Shown here one piece after another: positions 16,566 through 28,188 of a stretch of DNA of 46,548 bases. How positions within the stretch are numbered: the stretch's first letter is position 1; every line of letters begins with the position of its first letter. Source of the DNA: an uncultured Flavobacteriaceae bacterium (GTDB lineage: Bacteria; Bacteroidota; Bacteroidia; Flavobacteriales; Flavobacteriaceae); the NCBI GenBank assembly GCA_937923735.1, contig CALDUJ010000055.1:1-46548 (forward strand), read 5' to 3'. Position numbers and translations under genes: made by a program. The notes under the pieces are model-generated. The model was not told the origin of the DNA. It worked only from the letters and a program-made list of their open reading frames with translations, and did not search any database.

Positions 16566-17355
16566 CATCTTAGTAACAGGTTCAGGAGGACAACTTGGTT
16601 TGACTTTTGTTGATTTGGAAAAAAACAATTTTAGTAGAGATTTGAATTGGATATACTTGTCTTCTAATGAACTTGACATTACACAAAAAAACCAAATAGA
16701 CAAAACCCTTGAAGAACATAATTTTGATTATTGTATCAATTGTGCTGCCTTCACAGATGTAAATCAAGCAGAAAAATCACCAGAAAAAGCTTTTAATGTA
16801 AACGCAGAAGGAGTAAAACTTTTAGCCAAAGCATGTAAAACAAGAAACATAATTTTGATTCATATATCAACAGACTATGTGTTTGATGGCGAAAAAGACG
16901 CTCCTTATCAAGTTGACGACCCTACAAATCCAATTAATCAGTATGGCAAGTCAAAACTTCTGGGGGAAGAGTATATAAGAGATATATTAGCAAAATATTT
17001 CATCATCAGGACATCGGCACTTTATAGTAAAATTCATGGCAGTAATTTTTACAGAACGATTTTAAATAAAGCTAGAAGAGAGAAAAGGCTTTATGTAACC
17101 GACTCTCAAGTGACTTGTCCGACAGCTACAGAAACTCTTGCAAAGTTTATAATAGATTTAATTATCTCAGGCAATAGTAATTATGGCACATTACATTTTC
17201 ATGATGAAAAAATAATGTCCTGGTATGAATTTGCTAATCAAATACTATCGGAGAATAATTTATCTGGCGAGATATGTCTTGTTAAAAGTAACAAATATGG
17301 TACTTTTGTGCGTAGACCCAAAAATTCAATTTTATTAATAAATAGATTAAAGTAA
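16549..17355 (+). CDS. rfbD: dTDP-4-dehydrorhamnose reductase (apparently short C-terminus)
   Basis: NILVTGSGGQLGLTF, HISTDYVFDG, YGKSKLLGEEYI; ends RRPKNSILLINRLK*. Confidence 0.9.
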   Translation: MKKKTNILVTGSGGQLGLTFVDLEKNNFSRDLNWIYLSSNELDITQKNQIDKTLEEHNFDYCINCAAFTDVNQAEKSPEKAFNVNAEGVKLLAKACKTRNIILIHISTDYVFDGEKDAPYQVDDPTNPINQYGKSKLLGEEYIRDILAKYFIIRTSALYSKIHGSNFYRTILNKARREKRLYVTDSQVTCPTATETLAKFIIDLIISGNSNYGTLHFHDEKIMSWYEFANQILSENNLSGEICLVKSNKYGTFVRRPKNSILLINRLK

Positions 17356-18374
17356 TGCTGGATCTAAAAGGAAAATCAATTTTAATTACTGGAGGAACAG
17401 GTTCTCTTGGCAAGGCTCTAACAAAACATATTCTCAACAAATACCCTGAAATAAGAAAGCTAATCATTTTTTCTAGAGATGAGCAAAAACAATTTCAGAT
17501 GGCTCAAGAATATCCTGTTGAGAAATATCCTCAAATACGTTATTTTATTGGAGATGTTAGGGATAAGGAAAGATTGATTCGCGCATTTCAAGGAGTAGAG
17601 TATGTTATTCATGCTGCTGCTATGAAACATGTTCATATAGCAGAATACAATCCAGATGAATGTATAAAAACTAATATCGGAGGAGCTGAAAATGTTGTTG
17701 ATGCATGTTTTAAAACTAAAGTAGAACGCCTTGTTGCTCTATCAACAGACAAAGCTTGTGCGCCAATAAATCTTTATGGAGCAACTAAGTTAACATCAGA
17801 CAAATTGTTTATAGCTGCAAATAACATAAAGGGAGACAATCCAATACGCTTCTCTGTAGTTCGCTATGGGAATGTTATGGGTTCTAATGGGTCAGTAATA
17901 CCATTTTTCATTAATAAGAAGATGACAGATGGTGTGTTACCGATTACAGACCCGAATATGACAAGGTTCAATATTTCTTTACAAGGCGGTGTAGATATGG
18001 TCATGCATGCATTGGAGCATGCATGGGGCGGGGAATTATTTGTTCCTAAAATACCTTCTTACCGAATAATGGATGTAGCAAATGCAATAGGACCTGATTG
18101 CGATAAGCCTGTTGTAGGAATTAGACCAGGAGAAAAAGTTCATGAGGAGATGATAACAGCATCAGATTCTTTCTACACCTACGACTTAGGAAAATATTAC
18201 TCAATCCTACCTGCGGCTCACCAATGGAACCTGCAAGATTACATAAAAACCTTTAACGCCGTTAAAGTTGAACAAGGGTTTAGTTACAACTCTGGAGAAA
18301 ATAATGACTGGGAAACAGTTGATTCCCTGAGGCATCTAATAAAAGAACACGTAGATTCTAACTTTAAAGTGTAA
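17355..18374 (+). CDS. pseB: UDP-GlcNAc 4,6-dehydratase (inverting)
   Basis: KSILITGGTGSLGKALTKHIL, AAAMKHVHIAEYNPDECIKTNIGGAENVV, ALSTDKACAPINLYGATKL. Confidence 0.95.
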   Translation: MLDLKGKSILITGGTGSLGKALTKHILNKYPEIRKLIIFSRDEQKQFQMAQEYPVEKYPQIRYFIGDVRDKERLIRAFQGVEYVIHAAAMKHVHIAEYNPDECIKTNIGGAENVVDACFKTKVERLVALSTDKACAPINLYGATKLTSDKLFIAANNIKGDNPIRFSVVRYGNVMGSNGSVIPFFINKKMTDGVLPITDPNMTRFNISLQGGVDMVMHALEHAWGGELFVPKIPSYRIMDVANAIGPDCDKPVVGIRPGEKVHEEMITASDSFYTYDLGKYYSILPAAHQWNLQDYIKTFNAVKVEQGFSYNSGENNDWETVDSLRHLIKEHVDSNFKV

Positions 18375-19522
18375 TGAGTTCTATAATACCATACGGAAGG
18401 CAACATATAGAAAAAGAGGATATAGAGGCCGTAGTAGATACCCTTACTGCAGATTTTCTTACACAGGGCCCAAAAGTCAAAGAATTTGAAGATAAGTTTG
18501 CTAAGTATGTAGGTGCAAAATATGCAGTCGCAGTTAGCAATGCTACTGCTGGATTACATATTGCAGTTTTAGCTCTGGGTTTAAAGCCAGGAGAGCGAGT
18601 TATCACCACACCTATAACATTTGCTGCATCAGCTAATTGTGTACGTTATGCCGGTGGCGAAGTTTGGTTTGCCGATATAGACCCAGAAACATATCTATTA
18701 TCTTTAGAGAGCACCAAGCAACTCCTGGAAAGTAAACCTAAAGGATTTTTTAAAGGCATAATCCCAGTAGATTTTGCAGGATTGCCAGTTAACCTTGAAG
18801 CTTTCAGGAAATTGGCTGATGAGTATGATTTATGGATAATTGAAGATGCTTGCCACGCACCTGGCGGATATTTTACAGATTCTTCAAATAAAAAACAAAT
18901 GTGTGGAAATAGTAATTATGCCGACATAGGTATTTTTTCTTTTCATCCCGTAAAGCACATAGCCTGTGGAGAAGGAGGCATGGTTACCACTAACTCTAAA
19001 ACAATTTATGATAGGTTAATGCGATTAAGAACACATGGTATAACCAAAGAACACATGAGCGAAAATCATGGCGGGTGGTTTTATGAAATGCAAGAACTAG
19101 GCTTTAATTATAGACTTACAGATATTCAATCAGCATTAGGCATTACTCAGCTTGCCAAAAATAAGAATGGCGTAATTGTAAGAAACAAAATAGCTAATAA
19201 ATATAAAAAGGCATTTAAGGGTAAAATCAAATTCCAAAGCCTTCCCACTGGTGGGACTTATAATGCGCATCATCTCTTCGTAATCGAAGTAGAAAACAGA
19301 AAAGGATTATATGACTTTTTGAGAACCCATAATATTTTTGCTCAAATACATTATATACCCGTGCATACTTTACCTTATTATAAGGAAATAGGTTATGGCA
19401 GCGCAGACCTATCCAATGCAGAAAAATATTATTCTAATTGTATTAGTTTGCCAATGTATCCTACATTAACCGATAAAGAACAAATGTTTGTAATCGAAAA
19501 AGTTCTATCCTATATTAAATGA
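18374..19522 (+). CDS. pseC: UDP-4-amino-4,6-dideoxy-N-acetyl-beta-L-altrosamine transaminase
   Basis: PYGRQHIEKEDIEAVVDTL, DFLTQGPKVKEFE, FSFHPVKHIACGEGG (PLP lysine). Confidence 0.94.
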   Translation: MSSIIPYGRQHIEKEDIEAVVDTLTADFLTQGPKVKEFEDKFAKYVGAKYAVAVSNATAGLHIAVLALGLKPGERVITTPITFAASANCVRYAGGEVWFADIDPETYLLSLESTKQLLESKPKGFFKGIIPVDFAGLPVNLEAFRKLADEYDLWIIEDACHAPGGYFTDSSNKKQMCGNSNYADIGIFSFHPVKHIACGEGGMVTTNSKTIYDRLMRLRTHGITKEHMSENHGGWFYEMQELGFNYRLTDIQSALGITQLAKNKNGVIVRNKIANKYKKAFKGKIKFQSLPTGGTYNAHHLFVIEVENRKGLYDFLRTHNIFAQIHYIPVHTLPYYKEIGYGSADLSNAEKYYSNCISLPMYPTLTDKEQMFVIEKVLSYIK

Positions 19523-20043
19523 AAGCTATTAGGATAGAATCCCAAAGGCTACTTTTTGAGCCCCTATCTTTAAGACATCTCTCAGAGGATTATGTTGATT
19601 GGCTTAACAATAAAGAAGTTAATAGATATTTAGAATCTGGAGGAGATTATACACTAGAAAAGCTTAAGACTTTTTTAAAAGAACAACAAAATAAGGACAT
19701 ACTTTTTTGGGCAATTTTTATTAAAAGCTCAAATAAACATATTGGTAACATAAAGATTGACCCAATAAACCATAAAAACAATTCTGGAGAATATGGGATC
19801 ATGATGGGCGATTCTTCAGAATGGGGGAAAGGGTATGCTAAGGAGGCATCATTAAGAATTATAGATTACTGTTTTAATGAGCTTAAGCTATCTAAAATAA
19901 CATTAGGGGTTATTGATGCTAATAGAGTGGCATTAAAATTGTATAAAAAGATTGGTTTTATAGAAGAGTCTATTAAAAAAGATTATGGTATTTATGATGG
20001 TAGATTATGTAGTTCAATACGTATGGTAAAGCACAATGATTAA
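19519..20043 (+). CDS. GNAT N-acetyltransferase, PseH-like
   Basis: GNAT fold signature (EYGIMMGDSSEWGKGYAKEAS...LGVIDANRVALKLYKKIGF) directly after pseC. Confidence 0.82.
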   Translation: MKAIRIESQRLLFEPLSLRHLSEDYVDWLNNKEVNRYLESGGDYTLEKLKTFLKEQQNKDILFWAIFIKSSNKHIGNIKIDPINHKNNSGEYGIMMGDSSEWGKGYAKEASLRIIDYCFNELKLSKITLGVIDANRVALKLYKKIGFIEESIKKDYGIYDGRLCSSIRMVKHND

Positions 20044-20911
20044 CAAAATAATACTCGGAACAGTTCAATTAGGCTTAGATTATGGAATAAATAACCATTC
20101 AGGAAAACCATCTAAACAACGTGCATTTCAAATTCTTGAAAACGCTCATAATTTTGGTATAACCAAACTAGATACTGCAGAGTCTTATGGTAATTCCGAA
20201 TATATTATTGGTGATTTTCACAAAGAAAACCCCAATAAAATTTTTGATGTTATTACTAAATTAGCAGCCAATAGTGATTTGGCTCCAAAGAATTTTATGA
20301 GGCATATTGCTGAGAGCTGTAACAGATTGTATGTCGATAGGCTTTATGGTTATATGTTTCATAATTATAAAAGCTTTAAAGATAAAGAGGGCTTATACGA
20401 ACAATTACTACTTGCTAAAGATAAAGGCTTAATTAAAAAAGCAGGAATCTCTCTTTATAATAACGAAGAATTAGAAGATGTTTTAGAACATTACAACAAT
20501 TTCGATTTAATTCAAATACCATTTAATCTTTTAGATAATGCATCAAAGCGTCAAAATGTACTAGAAAAGGCAAAAGAAAAAAATGTTGAGGTGCATACTC
20601 GATCTGTCTTTTTACAAGGTGTTTTTTTTAAGAAAATAAAAAGCCTACCAAAAAAGCTAGAGCCATTAGGAACTTATTTAATTACGCTCGAAAATATTAT
20701 GCTCGAAAACGATATTGACACTCAAGCCCTAGCATTAAACTATGTTTTACAAAAAAACTATATAGATAATGTCTTAATCGGTGTCGAAACACCAGAACAA
20801 TTAGTAAATAATATTAAAGCATGTAATAATGACAATCATATTCCACATGACATTATTGATGCTATTATTGTTAAGGAAAAAGAACTATTAAACCCCTCAA
20901 ATTGGAATTAA
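20036..20911 (+). CDS. Aldo/keto reductase within the NulO module
   Basis: LGTVQLGLDYGI; ITKLDTAESYG; candidate catalytic D, Y, K and H present. Confidence 0.88.
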   Translation: MINKIILGTVQLGLDYGINNHSGKPSKQRAFQILENAHNFGITKLDTAESYGNSEYIIGDFHKENPNKIFDVITKLAANSDLAPKNFMRHIAESCNRLYVDRLYGYMFHNYKSFKDKEGLYEQLLLAKDKGLIKKAGISLYNNEELEDVLEHYNNFDLIQIPFNLLDNASKRQNVLEKAKEKNVEVHTRSVFLQGVFFKKIKSLPKKLEPLGTYLITLENIMLENDIDTQALALNYVLQKNYIDNVLIGVETPEQLVNNIKACNNDNHIPHDIIDAIIVKEKELLNPSNWN

Positions 20912-20912
20912 T

Positions 20913-21677
20913 ATGAGTACCATAGTAGTCACGCAAGCAAGATCTGGCTCTACTCGCCTACCAAACAAAGTTTTGCTCAAAGTTAAGGATAAGACATTAT
21001 TACAGATTCATATAGATAGGATTAAACGGGCAAAGCTAGTAGATGATATATATATCGCTACTACTACTGAGATTGGCGACGATGTAATCGCAAATCTAGC
21101 TGAAAACTTAAAGGTTAAATACCATAGAGGAAGTGAAGATGATGTGTTAGATCGGTTTTATCAAACGGTTAAAGATATTAGGCCAGATTTTATTGTCAGA
21201 TTAACTTCAGATTGTCCATTGATTGACCCTAAGCTCCTAGATGAAGTGATAGTAGAAGCAAAAAAGTTAAACGTTGACTATTATGCTAATATTATTGAGG
21301 AGCGTTTTCCAGACGGACAAGATATTGAGGTTTTTAAATTCAGTGCTTTAAAAAAAGCATGGAAAGAAGCCAAACTGAGTTCGGACAGAGAGCACGTCAC
21401 ACCTTACATAAGAAATAATTCGACATATAAAGGAGGGAATTTATTTACCTCAAGCAACCATAATCTAAAAGATAATTATAACCATGTCAGACTAACGGTT
21501 GACGAACCTCAAGATTTAGAAGTCATAAAAGAAATTGTAAAAGATTTGGGCTTAGACAAAGATTGGAAAACCTATGCAGATTACTATTTAGAAAATGAAA
21601 AAGTAAGAAGCTTAAACAATTCCATAGCCAGAAACGAAGGCTATCAAAAATCGATTAGTAAAGAGAAAAACAATTAG
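20913..21677 (+). CDS. SpsF-type cytidylyltransferase (probable CMP-NulO synthetase)
   Basis: IVVTQARSGSTRLPNKVLLKVKDKTLLQ, HRGSEDDVLDRFY, RLTSDCPLIDP. Confidence 0.87.
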   Translation: MSTIVVTQARSGSTRLPNKVLLKVKDKTLLQIHIDRIKRAKLVDDIYIATTTEIGDDVIANLAENLKVKYHRGSEDDVLDRFYQTVKDIRPDFIVRLTSDCPLIDPKLLDEVIVEAKKLNVDYYANIIEERFPDGQDIEVFKFSALKKAWKEAKLSSDREHVTPYIRNNSTYKGGNLFTSSNHNLKDNYNHVRLTVDEPQDLEVIKEIVKDLGLDKDWKTYADYYLENEKVRSLNNSIARNEGYQKSISKEKNN

Positions 21678-21708
21678 TATTTTTAAGTGAATATTTATTC
21701 TTTAAAAG

Positions 21709-23022
21709 ATGAAAAACAGAACTGGACAAACACTCTATAAAAAGGCAAAAAAATTAATTCCTGGAGGAACTATGTTATTGTCAAAACGACCAGAAATGTT
21801 TCTACCAGAGAATTGGCCTTCGTACTTTTCTAAAGCAAAAGGGTGTAGAGTTTGGGATTTAGACGGCAAAGAATATGTCGATATGTGTATAATGGGTATT
21901 GGCACTAATACCTTAGGATATGGTAATGATGAGGTTGATGAAGCCGTTTTGAGGTCAGTTAAGAAGGGTAATATGAGTACATTTAATTGTCCGGAAGAAG
22001 TTGCTTTAGCAGAAAAATTAGTAGAGATTAATCCTTGGGCAGACATGGTGAGATTTGCTAGAAGTGGAGGAGAAGCAAACTCGATAGCCATTAGGATTGC
22101 TAGAGCAGCTTCTGGTAAAGACAAAGTTGCAATTTGCGGTTATCATGGATGGCATGACTGGTATTTATCTGCTAACCACAATAAGGGAGATGAATTATCA
22201 AGCCACCTATTATCTGGACTAAACCCAAATGGCGTTCCAAAGAACTTAAAAAATACAGTTTATCCATTCCATTACAATAACTATGAAGAGTTACTATCCA
22301 TTGTCAATCAAAATGATATTGGAGTTATTAAAATGGAAGTGATGCGAAATTTTGGTCCTGAAGACAATTTTCTACAGAAAGTTAGAGATTTGGCTAACAA
22401 ACGTAACATAGTATTGATTTTTGATGAATGCACATCAGGTTTTAGAGAAACTTATGGAGGCATATACAAGAAATATGGTGTTGAACCTGATGTTGCCATG
22501 TATGGTAAAACAATAGGTAATGGCTACGCCTTAACAGCAGTAGTTGGAAAAAAATCTGTTATGGAAGCAGCACAAACATCATTTATAAGCAGTACTTTTT
22601 GGACAGAAAGAATTGGTCCAACGGCAGCATTAAAAACCCTTGAGGTTATGAAAAAGATGGAATCTTGGAACATTATAACAGAGCAGGGTTCTAAAATTCA
22701 AAAACTCTGGAAATCATTGGCAAAGACACACGACTTAACTATAAATATTTCAGGAATGCCAGCTTTAAGCACTTATAGTTTTAGTAGTGATAATGCTATG
22801 AAGTATAAAACACTTGTAGCCCAGGAAATGCTTAAAAAAGGGTTTTTAGCAAGTACTAATTTTTACGCATGTACAGAACATACCGATAAGCATATAGAAA
22901 ATTACATTGACGCTTTAGATGATGTTTACAACTCAATTTCTGAATGTGAAAAAGGAAATAAGAACATAAATAATCTTCTAGAAGGTCCTGTTTGCCATTC
23001 AGGCTTCAAGAGGTTGAATTGA
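21709..23022 (+). CDS. Class-III PLP aminotransferase, glutamate-1-semialdehyde aminomutase-like
   Basis: KKLIPGGTMLLSKRPEMFLP, VRFARSGGEANSIAIRIARA, GYHGWHDWY, IFDECTSGFR, MYGKTIGNGYAL. Confidence 0.9.
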   Translation: MKNRTGQTLYKKAKKLIPGGTMLLSKRPEMFLPENWPSYFSKAKGCRVWDLDGKEYVDMCIMGIGTNTLGYGNDEVDEAVLRSVKKGNMSTFNCPEEVALAEKLVEINPWADMVRFARSGGEANSIAIRIARAASGKDKVAICGYHGWHDWYLSANHNKGDELSSHLLSGLNPNGVPKNLKNTVYPFHYNNYEELLSIVNQNDIGVIKMEVMRNFGPEDNFLQKVRDLANKRNIVLIFDECTSGFRETYGGIYKKYGVEPDVAMYGKTIGNGYALTAVVGKKSVMEAAQTSFISSTFWTERIGPTAALKTLEVMKKMESWNIITEQGSKIQKLWKSLAKTHDLTINISGMPALSTYSFSSDNAMKYKTLVAQEMLKKGFLASTNFYACTEHTDKHIENYIDALDDVYNSISECEKGNKNINNLLEGPVCHSGFKRLN

Positions 23023-24032
23023 TGAAAAAAATAATATTTAGGGCAGATGGAAATTCTGAAACGGGTCTAGGGCATCTTTACAGACTTTTTAGTCTGGTTG
23101 AAATAGTCAAGGAGCATTATGATTTCATTTTCTTAACTAAACAGACTTCCACTTTGGCTGTTATACCAGAAGATTATAATGTATCTACAATCCCAGAACA
23201 TATTATAATTACTGAAGAACCACAATGGATTAAGTCCAATTTTTCTTATGAATCTCATTTTATAATAGCTGATGGGTACCATTTTGACTCAACATATCAA
23301 TACGACATCAAGCAATTTAAATTTAGCCTAATTTATGTAGATGACCTAGCCAAAGATATCATGTTTGCTGACCTTGTTATCAATCACTCACCTTATCTTA
23401 AGTTAGAGGATTACGATAAACAAGCTTATACCCAACTGGCATTGGGCACATCTTACGCTCTGCTTAGACCAGCATTTTTGGAGGCTGCAAGACAGAAAAG
23501 ACAAATTGGTAAAATAGATAGTGCATTTGTGTGTTTTGGCGGTGCAGACCCATTTAACCTTACATTAAAGGCTCTTAAAGGATTATTATTAAGAAAGGAT
23601 ATACAACACATTCATGTGGTTCTAGGAGCTGCCTACAAGCATTCAGAGATTTTTGAAATATCAGATACTTTTAAAGATAAGGAGGTTTTAATACATAAAA
23701 ATTTGTCCGAACTACAGCTTGTTAAAATTATGAAGGCATGCCAATTCGCAATTGCTCCTGCTAGCACAATATTATATGAACTTTGCTGTATAAAAATGCC
23801 AATTTTAAGTGGTTATTATGTTGATAACCAAAAACTCATATATAATGGTTTTTTGAATCAAGATGCTATTTATGGAGGAGGCAATATGCAGCATTACAAC
23901 ACAAAAGACTTCTCTAACGAAATAGAATCTATACTATCACTAAAAACCCATGTAAATACTATAGAGTCTCAAGGCACATTATTTGACGGTGAGATAAAAA
24001 CTAGACTTTTAAATTTAATTAACTCAATATGA
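23022..24032 (+). CDS. pseG: PseG-like UDP-sugar hydrolase
   Basis: FRADGNSETGLGHLYRLFSLVEI; PseG-like organisation (YVDDLAKDIMFADLVINHSPYL, CFGGADPFNLTLKAL). Start moved from 22992 to ATG 23022. Confidence 0.85.
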   Translation: MKKIIFRADGNSETGLGHLYRLFSLVEIVKEHYDFIFLTKQTSTLAVIPEDYNVSTIPEHIIITEEPQWIKSNFSYESHFIIADGYHFDSTYQYDIKQFKFSLIYVDDLAKDIMFADLVINHSPYLKLEDYDKQAYTQLALGTSYALLRPAFLEAARQKRQIGKIDSAFVCFGGADPFNLTLKALKGLLLRKDIQHIHVVLGAAYKHSEIFEISDTFKDKEVLIHKNLSELQLVKIMKACQFAIAPASTILYELCCIKMPILSGYYVDNQKLIYNGFLNQDAIYGGGNMQHYNTKDFSNEIESILSLKTHVNTIESQGTLFDGEIKTRLLNLINSI

Positions 24033-24910
24033 TGAGAATTGCGATATTATGCAGTGGAGGTTTAGGCTTAGATACTTTAAAAAAAGTAACACCAGAGTAT
24101 AATGTTGTTTGCGTTTTAACAGACAGTAAATCAACTGAAATAATAGAGTTTTCTAAGGAAAATAATATTCCATATTTTGCCGGCAATCCTAGAAATAATA
24201 AGGGTTTTAATTTTATAAAAAATTTTAGCATTGACATTATTGCTTCAATAAACTACCTGTTTCTTATTGAAGAAGATATTATTAATCATCCTAATAAGCT
24301 TTCGTTTAATATTCATGGCTCCTTGTTACCAAAATATAGAGGAAGAACACCACATGTTTGGGCAATTATTAACGACGAAAAAGAAGCTGGTATTACAGCA
24401 CATGTTATTGATGCAGGTTGTGATACAGGAGATATTATTCATCAAATAAAAATTCCAATTCTACCTGATGATACTGGAGCTAATATGTTAGAAAAATATG
24501 CTCAAGCTTATTTTCCTCTAGTGAAAAAAGTGCTTAGAGATATTGAATGCAATCAATTAAAATTAACTGAACAAGACGAGTCTTTGGCTACATATTTTGG
24601 GAAAAGAACACCTTTAGACGGTGCAATTAACTGGAATTGGGATAGGAAAAGAATAAAAAACTGGATAAGAGCTCTAGCAGACCCTTATCCAGGAGCATTT
24701 ACTTTTTATAAAGGACAGAAAATAGTGATAGACAAAGTATCTTTTTCAGATTTAAAAGTAAATGATAAGCAAAACAATGGCGAAATAATTACTGTGAAAC
24801 CTTCAGTGATTGTGAAAACCAAAAACGGCGCCATTAAGCTAGAAAGCATAAGAACAGAAAATTGTACTTTTAACCTAGGAAAAAAGTTTGATAATGAAAA
24901 TAGGGAATAA
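24029..24910 (+). CDS. Formyltransferase (ArnA/Fmt-like), predicted sugar N-formyltransferase
   Basis: FNIHGSLLPKYRGRTPHVWAIINDEKEAGITAHVIDAGCDTGDII: Asn-His-Asp catalytic residues conserved. Confidence 0.88.
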   Translation: MMRIAILCSGGLGLDTLKKVTPEYNVVCVLTDSKSTEIIEFSKENNIPYFAGNPRNNKGFNFIKNFSIDIIASINYLFLIEEDIINHPNKLSFNIHGSLLPKYRGRTPHVWAIINDEKEAGITAHVIDAGCDTGDIIHQIKIPILPDDTGANMLEKYAQAYFPLVKKVLRDIECNQLKLTEQDESLATYFGKRTPLDGAINWNWDRKRIKNWIRALADPYPGAFTFYKGQKIVIDKVSFSDLKVNDKQNNGEIITVKPSVIVKTKNGAIKLESIRTENCTFNLGKKFDNENRE

Positions 24911-25934
24911 AGAAATTGGTGGAAATAATCCATGTTTTATTATAGCAGAATTATCTGCAAACCATAATGGAGATTTAGAAGTAGCCAAGGATACGATAAG
25001 AGCTGCAAAAAAAACGGGTGCCGACGCTATAAAACTTCAAACATATACTCCAGATACCCTAACCATTGATTGTGATAATGAGCATTTTCGAATCGAAGAA
25101 GGAACACTATGGGATGGGAAGACACTATATGAGTTGTACGGTGAGGCATATACTCCATGGGAGTGGCATAAAGAACTTTTTGAGGTAGCAAAAGAAGAAG
25201 ATTTAGTGTGTTTTTCTTCTCCTTTTGATTTTACAGCAGTAGATTTTTTAGAAGAATTAAATACTCCAGCATATAAGATAGCCTCTTTTGAAATTCAAGA
25301 TATTCCACTCATAGAATATGCAGCATCTAAAGGTAAACCTATAATAATGTCTACAGGAATAGCAGAACTTAAGGACATTGAATTAGCTGTAGAGACTTGT
25401 AAAAAAGTAGGTAATAATGAAATAGTATTGTTAAAATGTACATCATCTTACCCTGCTCCATTAGAGTTAGCCAACTTGAATACAATATTAGACATGAAAA
25501 AGAGGTTTGATGTTGAGGTTGGGTTTAGTGACCATACATACGGCAGCTTAGCACCAACTATTGCAACGACTTTAGGAGCTAAAGTAATAGAAAAGCACTT
25601 TATATTAGACAAGAATATTGGAGGGCCAGATGCTGATTTCTCATTAGACCTAGGAGAGTTTACAGATATGGTTCAAAAAGTTAGAGATACAGAAAAATTA
25701 CTTGGAGAAACATCTTATGAGTTATCTGAAAAAGTAAAAAAGAATAAGAAATTTGCTAGGTCTCTGTTTGTTGTTGAAGATGTTAAAAAAGGAGATGTAT
25801 TAACTATAAATAATATAAAATCTATAAGACCTGGTTATGGGTTACACCCAAAGCACTTAAATAGTATCATAGGGCAGGTATTTAAGGAAGACCTTAAAAA
25901 GGGCACACCTCTTAAGATGGAACACCTTAACTAA
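24888..25934 (+). CDS. pseI: Pseudaminic acid synthase
   Basis: CFIIAELSANHNGDLEVAKDTIRAAKKTGADAIKLQTYTPDTLT, LYELYGEAYTPWEWHKELF, YKIASFEIQDIPLIEY, C-terminal SAF domain. Confidence 0.96.
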   Translation: MIMKIGNKEIGGNNPCFIIAELSANHNGDLEVAKDTIRAAKKTGADAIKLQTYTPDTLTIDCDNEHFRIEEGTLWDGKTLYELYGEAYTPWEWHKELFEVAKEEDLVCFSSPFDFTAVDFLEELNTPAYKIASFEIQDIPLIEYAASKGKPIIMSTGIAELKDIELAVETCKKVGNNEIVLLKCTSSYPAPLELANLNTILDMKKRFDVEVGFSDHTYGSLAPTIATTLGAKVIEKHFILDKNIGGPDADFSLDLGEFTDMVQKVRDTEKLLGETSYELSEKVKKNKKFARSLFVVEDVKKGDVLTINNIKSIRPGYGLHPKHLNSIIGQVFKEDLKKGTPLKMEHLN

Positions 25935-25936
25935 GT

Positions 25937-27181
25937 ATGCAAAAAAAAATATTAGCATTAGTACTTAGAGGAGCATCGATGGGCTCTAAATTTTTATTAA
26001 TTATTGGCTTATCTAAAGTATTAACTACCGAAGACTACGGGGTTTTTAGTTTAATAATAACAACATTAACATTCCTGATGTTTTTTTTAGGTCTTGATTT
26101 CTATAATTTTTCACATCGTGAGATTATAGAAAAAGACCACTCTAAAATTCAATTTTTAGTTAATCAATTTTGGTTTCATTTGTTTTGTTATGTACTTTAC
26201 ATACCAATTATATATCTGATTTTTGGAGCTGATATTATACCAATAACATATATATATCCTTTTTATCTGCTACTTGTTTTTGAGCATTTAGGGCAAGAGT
26301 TATTTAGATTTTTCAACTTGTTTAACAAGCCCAATATCGCCAACTTAATTTTGTTAATTAGAACAGGTTTTTGGATAGTGATTATGCTCATTTTTGAATA
26401 TTTAATTTTCAATAATACGCTTACCATAACATCTATATTATATTACTGGATTGGAGGATCCTTGTTAGCCATTATATTTGCAATTGCATACATAATATCT
26501 CAGAAAAGTGTAAATCTCAATGACATCAATTTTTTTAAAATCGATAAAAGCTGGATAAAAGCTGGAATTAGGATAAGCATTCCTTTTTTTCTAGGCACTA
26601 TCGCTTACAAGGTAATTGAATATTCAGACAGATACATGATAGACTGGTTTATGGGGAAAGCTGAGGTGGGCGTCTATTCTTTTTTTGCAAATTTCGCAAA
26701 CATAGTTAATATAGTAGTTAACACCATAACGATTACTTTACTAGTTCCAAACTTATTAAGAGCAGTTAGTTCTGAAAAAGAAGAAGAGATTAAATTAAAA
26801 ACCAAACAATTTTCTAGAGAGCTATACTTAACCACATTATTGGTAAGTCTTATTATCGTCGGTTTAATATATCCAGTACTAAGTTGGCTTGATAAGCCTG
26901 AATTTTCTGCTGAGATTCGAGTATATTTCGTAATTCTTCTTGCCAATATATTATTCAACGCATCATTAATATATCATTATTTGCTTTATGCATACAAGAG
27001 GGATAAAGATATTTTAATGCCAGCTGTATATGCTTCCGGAACTAATATACTGTTAAATGTCATTTTCATACCCATATTTGGGCTAATTGCTGCGGCACTA
27101 TCAACTTTAGTGAGTTTCGGCTTAATTTTAATACTGAAAAGAAAGTTTTGGTCGAAAACAAAAAACCTTGAAATGTTATGA
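25937..27181 (+). CDS. Oligosaccharide flippase, Wzx-like
   Basis: Polytopic MATE/Wzx-like protein (LALVLRGASMGSKFLLIIGLSKVLTTEDYGVFSLI). Confidence 0.88.
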   Translation: MQKKILALVLRGASMGSKFLLIIGLSKVLTTEDYGVFSLIITTLTFLMFFLGLDFYNFSHREIIEKDHSKIQFLVNQFWFHLFCYVLYIPIIYLIFGADIIPITYIYPFYLLLVFEHLGQELFRFFNLFNKPNIANLILLIRTGFWIVIMLIFEYLIFNNTLTITSILYYWIGGSLLAIIFAIAYIISQKSVNLNDINFFKIDKSWIKAGIRISIPFFLGTIAYKVIEYSDRYMIDWFMGKAEVGVYSFFANFANIVNIVVNTITITLLVPNLLRAVSSEKEEEIKLKTKQFSRELYLTTLLVSLIIVGLIYPVLSWLDKPEFSAEIRVYFVILLANILFNASLIYHYLLYAYKRDKDILMPAVYASGTNILLNVIFIPIFGLIAAALSTLVSFGLILILKRKFWSKTKNLEML

Positions 27182-28188
27182 ATTTAGTAAGTATTTTTGT
27201 TGCAATTGCTCCAAATCACATTTCAAACTTCGAGAACATAATTGAAAGCGATAAAGATATACGCTTCACAGTTTTACTAAACCCAGGGAACTTTAAGTTC
27301 AAACCAGCCGTTTGGAATCAAGTAATCGAAGGTGACTTAAATTTAAGATATACAGAATCTTCAAAATTTAACAAGTTAAAATATCAATTAGGAAAGCTTA
27401 TTGGTTACAAATCTTTTATAGCTCAGGTGAAGAAGCATCTGCCTAAAGCCCAGCAATATAGATATTATTACTGTAATTTAGACGACATACTTACTAATCA
27501 TATCTTTTACTATTTTGATGGTAAGGACATTACAATTGATAACTATGTTGTAGAAGACGGAATACTTAATTATTATTATCCGAAGACTAATAACAAAAAA
27601 TTAAAATTAAAGAAAGTACTTTGTAAATATTTACTGGGGGTTGATATAATCCCTGAAAACAATCACCCTACAGGAATACATTTAGATAAAGTTAATGCAC
27701 AATACGTAAGATTACCTGAAAAATCTATCTTCCCAGAAAAATCTAATCAGCTTCCATTTGTTAAGATAAACTATGAGCCTGTAAAAAATATTATTCTTGT
27801 TGTAGGGCAAGATATAATGCATAATAGCGATGAGGGTTCAAATTACTACAAGAAAAAGCTAAAAGAGCTTTTTGGTCATATTCTGAAGAGAATGGAAAGA
27901 GATTGTAAAATTATATACAAACCTCATAGAAATGGAGATTATACAATTGCAGAAGAAATACTAGAAGTAACTTTCACGAATTTTGAACTATATTTAGACA
28001 TTACTCCAATTGAAGAATGTTTGACGCAAATAAAACCAGCTTATATATATTCGTTTAACTCAAGTGCTTTAATTAATTTAAAGCTAGCATTAGAAAGAAA
28101 GGATATCTATATAGCTGGGTTACCTTATAATAAAAACAGTGAGTTAACCAGCCTTTTTAATAGTATAGGAATAGAAATTTTGTCATGA
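27178..28188 (+). CDS. Putative GT-B glycosyltransferase, sialyltransferase/polysialyltransferase-like
   Basis: Ordered motifs YVVEDGILNYY (D/E-D/E-G type), IIYKPHRNGD (HP-motif region), YIYSFNSSALINLKLAL (S motif). Confidence 0.55.
   Translation: MNLVSIFVAIAPNHISNFENIIESDKDIRFTVLLNPGNFKFKPAVWNQVIEGDLNLRYTESSKFNKLKYQLGKLIGYKSFIAQVKKHLPKAQQYRYYYCNLDDILTNHIFYYFDGKDITIDNYVVEDGILNYYYPKTNNKKLKLKKVLCKYLLGVDIIPENNHPTGIHLDKVNAQYVRLPEKSIFPEKSNQLPFVKINYEPVKNIILVVGQDIMHNSDEGSNYYKKKLKELFGHILKRMERDCKIIYKPHRNGDYTIAEEILEVTFTNFELYLDITPIEECLTQIKPAYIYSFNSSALINLKLALERKDIYIAGLPYNKNSELTSLFNSIGIEILS

Follow-up and report, generated by a model that had tools for sequence, protein, structure and literature searches.

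What sugar does a pseudaminic acid (Pse) gene cluster make when it carries enzymes that the canonical pathway (PseB-C-H-G-I-F) does not use? The question is raised by an uncultured Flavobacteriaceae bacterium, in which a 46,548-nucleotide stretch of DNA (hereafter the window), on one of the 209 pieces of a 2.74 Mb assembly, holds a Pse-type nonulosonate (NulO) locus with an interleaved aldo/keto reductase (AKR), class-III PLP aminotransferase (AT3), formyltransferase (FT) and GNAT acyltransferase.

A nine-gene run with added enzymes

ORF and domain calls place nine intact genes at 17355-25934, in the order given in Table 1. Neighboring genes overlap or are near-contiguous, with gaps of at most about 31 bp, so the run is likely a single operon. 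An earlier sequence-only reading of this DNA had given correct coordinates and had named pseB, pseC, pseG, pseI and the GNAT, AKR, AT3 and FT genes, all of them intact; it had omitted the cytidylyltransferase, which is central to the interpretation considered below.

Table 1. Genes of the nonulosonate run and the two genes that follow it
Feature	Coordinates	Strand	Evidence
PseB, UDP-GlcNAc 5-inverting 4,6-dehydratase	17355..18374	+	TIGR03589 494 bits, cutoff 408
PseC, UDP-4-amino-4,6-dideoxy-L-AltNAc transaminase	18374..19522	+	TIGR03588 453 bits, cutoff 424
GNAT acyltransferase, slot 1 (pseC/AKR gap), proposed C8-amine cap	19519..20043	+	PF13302 8e-22
Aldo/keto reductase (AKR), proposed C8-OH to 8-ketone	20036..20911	+	PF00248 2.9e-35
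SpsF-like cytidylyltransferase, proposed CMP-NulO synthetase	20913..21677	+	PF02348 8.6e-34
Class-III PLP aminotransferase (AT3), proposed 8-ketone amination	21709..23022	+	PF00202 1.9e-40
PseG, UDP-sugar hydrolase	22992..24032	+	TIGR03590 176 bits, cutoff 154; possible ATG start at 23022
ArnA/Fmt-like formyltransferase (FT), slot 2, proposed 7-formamido	24029..24910	+	PF00551/PF02911 (Formyl_trans_N + Formyl_trans_C)
PseI, pseudaminic acid synthase	24888..25934	+	TIGR03586 521 bits, cutoff 340
Wzx-like flippase	25937..27181	+	PF01943 1.2e-16
Possible NulO transferase, weakly polysialyltransferase-like	27178..28188	+	PF07388 1.6e-4, just under its cutoff

PseB, PseC, PseG and PseI, which pass their curated NCBIfam cutoffs, are common to the window and the canonical pathway. 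Where PseF would be expected, the window instead has an SpsF-like enzyme that falls below the PseF cutoff (TIGR03584, 20.6 bits against 205.7); PseH is apparently replaced by the FT, and AKR, AT3 and a second acyltransferase are added. The catalytic motifs that had been pointed out for the added enzymes are indeed present. The AKR tetrad D46/Y51/K75/H109 is intact and invariant across 76 relatives, the PLP lysine K267 of AT3 and its D239 are kept in at least 98% of 87 relatives, and N94/H96/D132 of the FT, which we take to be catalytic, align to the ArnA motif. In the PDB, AT3 is closest in sequence to GSA aminomutases; an aminopentol aminotransferase and C-6' aminoglycoside aminotransferases rank lower. 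The AKR, which adjoins the SpsF-like gene, belongs to a NulO-linked subfamily: a single profile gives 186–296 bits to AKRs from EpaA-like fusions, from SDR-partnered loci and from AT3-partnered loci, compared to 58–63 bits for the two other AKRs of the window genome.

A C8 precedent in EpaA and EpaB

A related enzyme pair, reported in 2025 from Acinetobacter baumannii prophages, points to a site of action. EpaA, a cytidylyltransferase-AKR fusion, and EpaB, an SDR, convert Pse5Ac7Ac to its 8-epimer as determined by NMR, the C8 inversion having been shown for the two as a pair, with the oxidizing member not singled out (PMC12053666). The cytidylyltransferase and AKR domains are common to the window, which differs in having them as separate genes and in having a class-III aminotransferase in place of the SDR; the likeness to EpaA is one of domain layout, not of direct sequence comparison. 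By ORF and domain calls, an EpaB-type SDR is absent from 17355-25934. Searches for EpaA itself gave none in phage and viral-contig collections, and 369 genomes of the class of genome G149 gave only the already known G323.

Three further loci pair the AKR with an SDR. One pse operon (L129) encodes a 544-aa cytidylyltransferase-AKR fusion and a 262-aa SDR, matching EpaA/EpaB in domain layout and partner size, while L119 and L156 carry AKR and SDR as separate genes within pse operons; the SDR is of the adh_short_C2 family in all three. By tree and HMM scores, the AKRs of these loci fall in the same subfamily as that of the window. As AT3 stands where the EpaB-type SDR would, C8 amination is the likely outcome: by analogy, the AKR would make an 8-ketone, which is then either reduced by an SDR or aminated by AT3.

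Two acyl slots

We then considered which amine might carry which acyl group. Across the surveyed loci, three kinds of possible amine modifier occur in the gap between PseC and AKR (slot 1): a GNAT that does not reach the PseH cutoff, a methyltransferase and, in the case of L194, an FT. The gap between PseG and PseI (slot 2) is occupied by PseH above cutoff (L041, 117 bits), by PseG-PseH fusions or by formyltransferases. The slot-1 GNAT of the window scores 47.9 bits against the PseH profile (cutoff 93.1) and, in a tree, groups apart from cutoff-passing PseH and among slot-1 GNATs that come almost entirely from AT3 loci (3 label changes, compared to 18.9 in shuffles). Slot-1 GNATs were found in 20 of 42 AT3 loci and 1 of 23 others (Fisher p = 0.00025), in a survey where most loci were collected via AT3; among the loci not collected via AT3, the association was not significant (p = 0.16).

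The FT, with its Formyl_trans_N domain inside a pse operon, scored 134 bits to ArnA and 54 bits to PseJ in a PDB search. It shares the formyltransferase fold with PseJ (PDB 6ci4), a named Pse formyltransferase, and differs from it in being longer, in having a C-terminal domain and in lying nearer to ArnA. FTs of the window type also occur in two loci without AKR or AT3 (L124, L159). Because the FT fills the PseH/PseJ slot and recurs without AKR and AT3, it probably makes the 7-formamide, and because the slot-1 GNAT is mostly found with AT3, it is the GNAT that probably caps the new C8 amine.

The sequence-only reading had placed the formyl group on the C8 amine, with the C7 amine as its alternative; these comparisons make the C8 placement less likely. 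In that arrangement C8 is still aminated, the GNAT is PseH and yields the 7-acetamide, and the FT formylates the new amine; we consider it unlikely. The weak PseH-likeness of the GNAT speaks for it, as does L194, where an FT in slot 1 adjoins AKR, suggesting that formylation of the new amine may occur in some loci. Against it, the place of the window FT is taken elsewhere by true PseH or PseG-PseH fusions, L041 carries PseH in addition to a slot-1 GNAT, and FTs of this type are present in L124 and L159, where AKR and AT3 are missing.

Distribution of the AKR-cytidylyltransferase-AT3 cassette

By ORF clustering, many phyla share one arrangement, pseB-pseC-(variable gene)-AKR-cytidylyltransferase-AT3-(PseG/acyl genes)-NeuB/PseI, and the cassette was found together with a NulO synthase in Bacteroidota, Pseudomonadota, Chlorobiota, Cyanobacteriota, Spirochaetota, Verrucomicrobiota and others. 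We quantified this in the best 80 of at least 587 loci from an AT3 search, 57 of which had good flanks. Within these 57 well-flanked loci, NeuB/PseI lay within 8 kb in 49 by HMM (about 50 in total with L033, recovered by tblastn), a cytidylyltransferase was fused or adjacent in 53, and an AKR lay within 1.2 kb in 43, with several more farther off. A cytidylyltransferase-AT3 fusion was present in 51 of the 80 best loci, and a cytidylyltransferase-AKR fusion in L033, L050 and L129 and, by HMM, in L071; fusions of one enzyme to either partner tie all three activities together. In a Flavobacteriaceae sample, AT3 was present in 10 of 399 genomes, with NeuB/PseI close by at 10 of 10 loci. Cultured strains with the cassette include Polaribacter sp. 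BAL334 and Paucihalobacter ruber. In the sample of the G149 class, with G149 as the starting point, PseI lay within about 5 kb in three of the four AT3 genomes, and the contig of the fourth stops just past AT3.

The sequence-only reading had named a lack of co-occurrence with pseI as a finding that would refute its proposal. The survey does not refute it: a NulO synthase gene accompanies the cassette in about 50 of the 57 well-flanked loci among the best 80 of at least 587. A chance sharing of the operon, in which AKR and AT3 would act on a different sugar of the polysaccharide, is quite improbable. The dTDP-sugar genes present upstream in the window and the AT3 homologues in loci without NulO genes (L076, L078, L081) would fit such a coincidence, but the order kept across phyla, the cytidylyltransferase fusions and the adjacency to a NulO synthase would not.

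By extension, the AKR-cytidylyltransferase-AT3 cassette may be a general module that aminates C8 of nonulosonates in many phyla, PseC-less versions included, with the variable neighbor acylating, formylating or methylating the amine; we give this broader proposal an even chance. Four loci with AT3 and without AKR (L020, L048, L058, L065) count against the C8-amination model proposed for the operon, which leaves them unexplained. They have the arrangement pseB-cytidylyltransferase-AT3-NeuB, pseB not being called in L058, and in L048 a DUF218 protein follows the cluster.

The survey also returned several variants. In seven loci (L012, L027, L051, L064, L067, L072, L073) PseC is missing, an RmlD-like reductase accompanies AKR and AT3, and NeuB lies at a distance; as these loci retain AKR and AT3, the new amine should not be the one at C7. 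Divergent AT3 proteins (231–273 bits) with the same AKR and cytidylyltransferase partners were seen in L149, L150, L151, L152 and L154, indicating that the E-value cut undercounted the cassette. In an IMG/VR contig classed as viral (L161), NeuB occurs with a GNAT, a weak cytidylyltransferase and an AT3 relative (51%). On a haloarchaeal Halorussus plasmid (L179), a gene of the NeuB family lies close to another AT3 relative (50.6%). In Bacteroidota pse clusters, a GNAT-like family stands in place of PseG (L008:11309-11872; L006:11303-12319, N-half; 17 further loci): 19 loci have the family without a PseG match and 41 PseG loci are without the family.

Proposed pathway

From gene families, catalytic residues, co-conservation and gene fusions we infer each reaction after PseI, its site at C8, the order of reactions and which amine bears the formyl and which the acyl group. 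We think it rather probable that the operon makes a CMP-activated Pse bearing an amino group instead of a hydroxyl at C8, with a 7-formamido group from the FT and an 8-acyl group from the GNAT. PseB and PseC would provide UDP-4-amino-4,6-dideoxy-L-AltNAc, whose 4-amine, C7 of the final sugar, would be formylated by the FT; PseG would remove UDP and PseI would condense the sugar with phosphoenolpyruvate. Acting on the free or the CMP-linked nonulosonate, the AKR would then oxidize the C8 hydroxyl to the ketone and AT3 would transaminate it, the slot-1 GNAT would acylate the new amine and the SpsF-like enzyme would add CMP. The predicted product, 5-acetamido-7-formamido-8-acylamino-3,5,7,8,9-pentadeoxynon-2-ulosonic acid, would enter a Wzx/Wzy surface polysaccharide.

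Oxidation and transamination at C8, as suggested in the sequence-only reading, is therefore retained as the best explanation, helped by EpaA/EpaB and by co-occurrence, with the formyl group moved. That the cassette instead epimerizes C8, with AT3 being no transaminase on this sugar, is suggested by the pairing of AKR relatives with an SDR in C8-epimerizing systems, but is most improbable for a run that has no EpaB-type SDR and whose AT3 retains its PLP lysine and aspartate.

Relation to known sugars and earlier reports

The building blocks of the predicted sugar have natural counterparts. An 8-amino-3,5,7,8,9-pentadeoxynonulosonate occurs in the O-polysaccharide of Flexibacter (Tenacibaculum) maritimus, and 7-formamido-Pse is known from Pseudoalteromonas. 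As far as our literature search reached, genes have not been assigned to the former, and nonulosonate genes go unmentioned in the genome paper of T. maritimum. Besides C8, Pse has a free secondary hydroxyl at C4, but amination there by AKR and AT3 has very little to recommend it, as we know of no natural 4-amino nonulosonate, whereas an 8-amino one is on record. The site of EpaA/EpaB is likewise C8 (PMC12053666).

The oxidation and transamination proposed at C8 have a parallel in the formation of a further 2-ulosonic acid, 8-amino-Kdo (named in PMC3210612).

In Shewanella, KdnA and KdnB form this 8-amino sugar; the likeness is one of chemistry only, and the enzyme families are presumably different from those of the window's AKR and AT3. 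The 274-Da flagellin sugar of Shewanella was considered as a C8-aminated case and rejected, its oxonium ion (C11H19N2O6+) having two nitrogens.

A Pse-like sugar of 403 Da is attached to the flagellin of Aeromonas hydrophila AH-1 (oxonium ion m/z 404.4, at low mass resolution); the authors of that work proposed a nitrogen-free formula for it. An even m/z of an even-electron ion indicates an odd number of nitrogens, and the odd mass of 403 thus implies an odd number in the AH-1 sugar. By composition calculation, 403 fits several triamino compositions and also amidino diamino ones. In the literature AH-1 counts among the strains with one sugar and an island of the small type (group I or III), and the A. 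hydrophila strains assigned to group I belong to subgroups that carry AKR and a class-III aminotransferase. The link between this sugar and a triamino Pse made by the cassette is suggestive only.

The gene order itself has been noted before, in 2021, in the Aeromonas flagellin glycosylation islands of groups IA-IE, for which the available portion of the report gives no function for the AKR or the aminotransferase (PMC7874193). Subgroup IA, with pseB-pseC-AKR-pseF-class III aminotransferase-pseG-pseI, has the same order as the window; its setting is flagellar, and an FT, present in the window, is not mentioned in that portion (PMC7874193). Available excerpts likewise state no function for a related SpsF-AKR fusion in Vibrio, or for the AKR and aminotransferase among comparable genes of the O-antigen locus in L. 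pneumophila serogroup 6. In a 2026 Clostridium survey, none of the relevant terms occurs. The description of the pathway as undescribed thus stands for function, as far as these partial sources go, and not for gene order, which was already in the Aeromonas report (PMC7874193).

Together, these data make the cassette a candidate for the missing genes of a rare, chemically known 8-amino nonulosonate, with a possible bearing on the unexplained AH-1 flagellin sugar. The cassette is common enough to alter genome-based predictions of surface-sugar structure and, if it is truly a general C8-amination module, it would represent a broad, unrecognized branch of nonulosonate chemistry.
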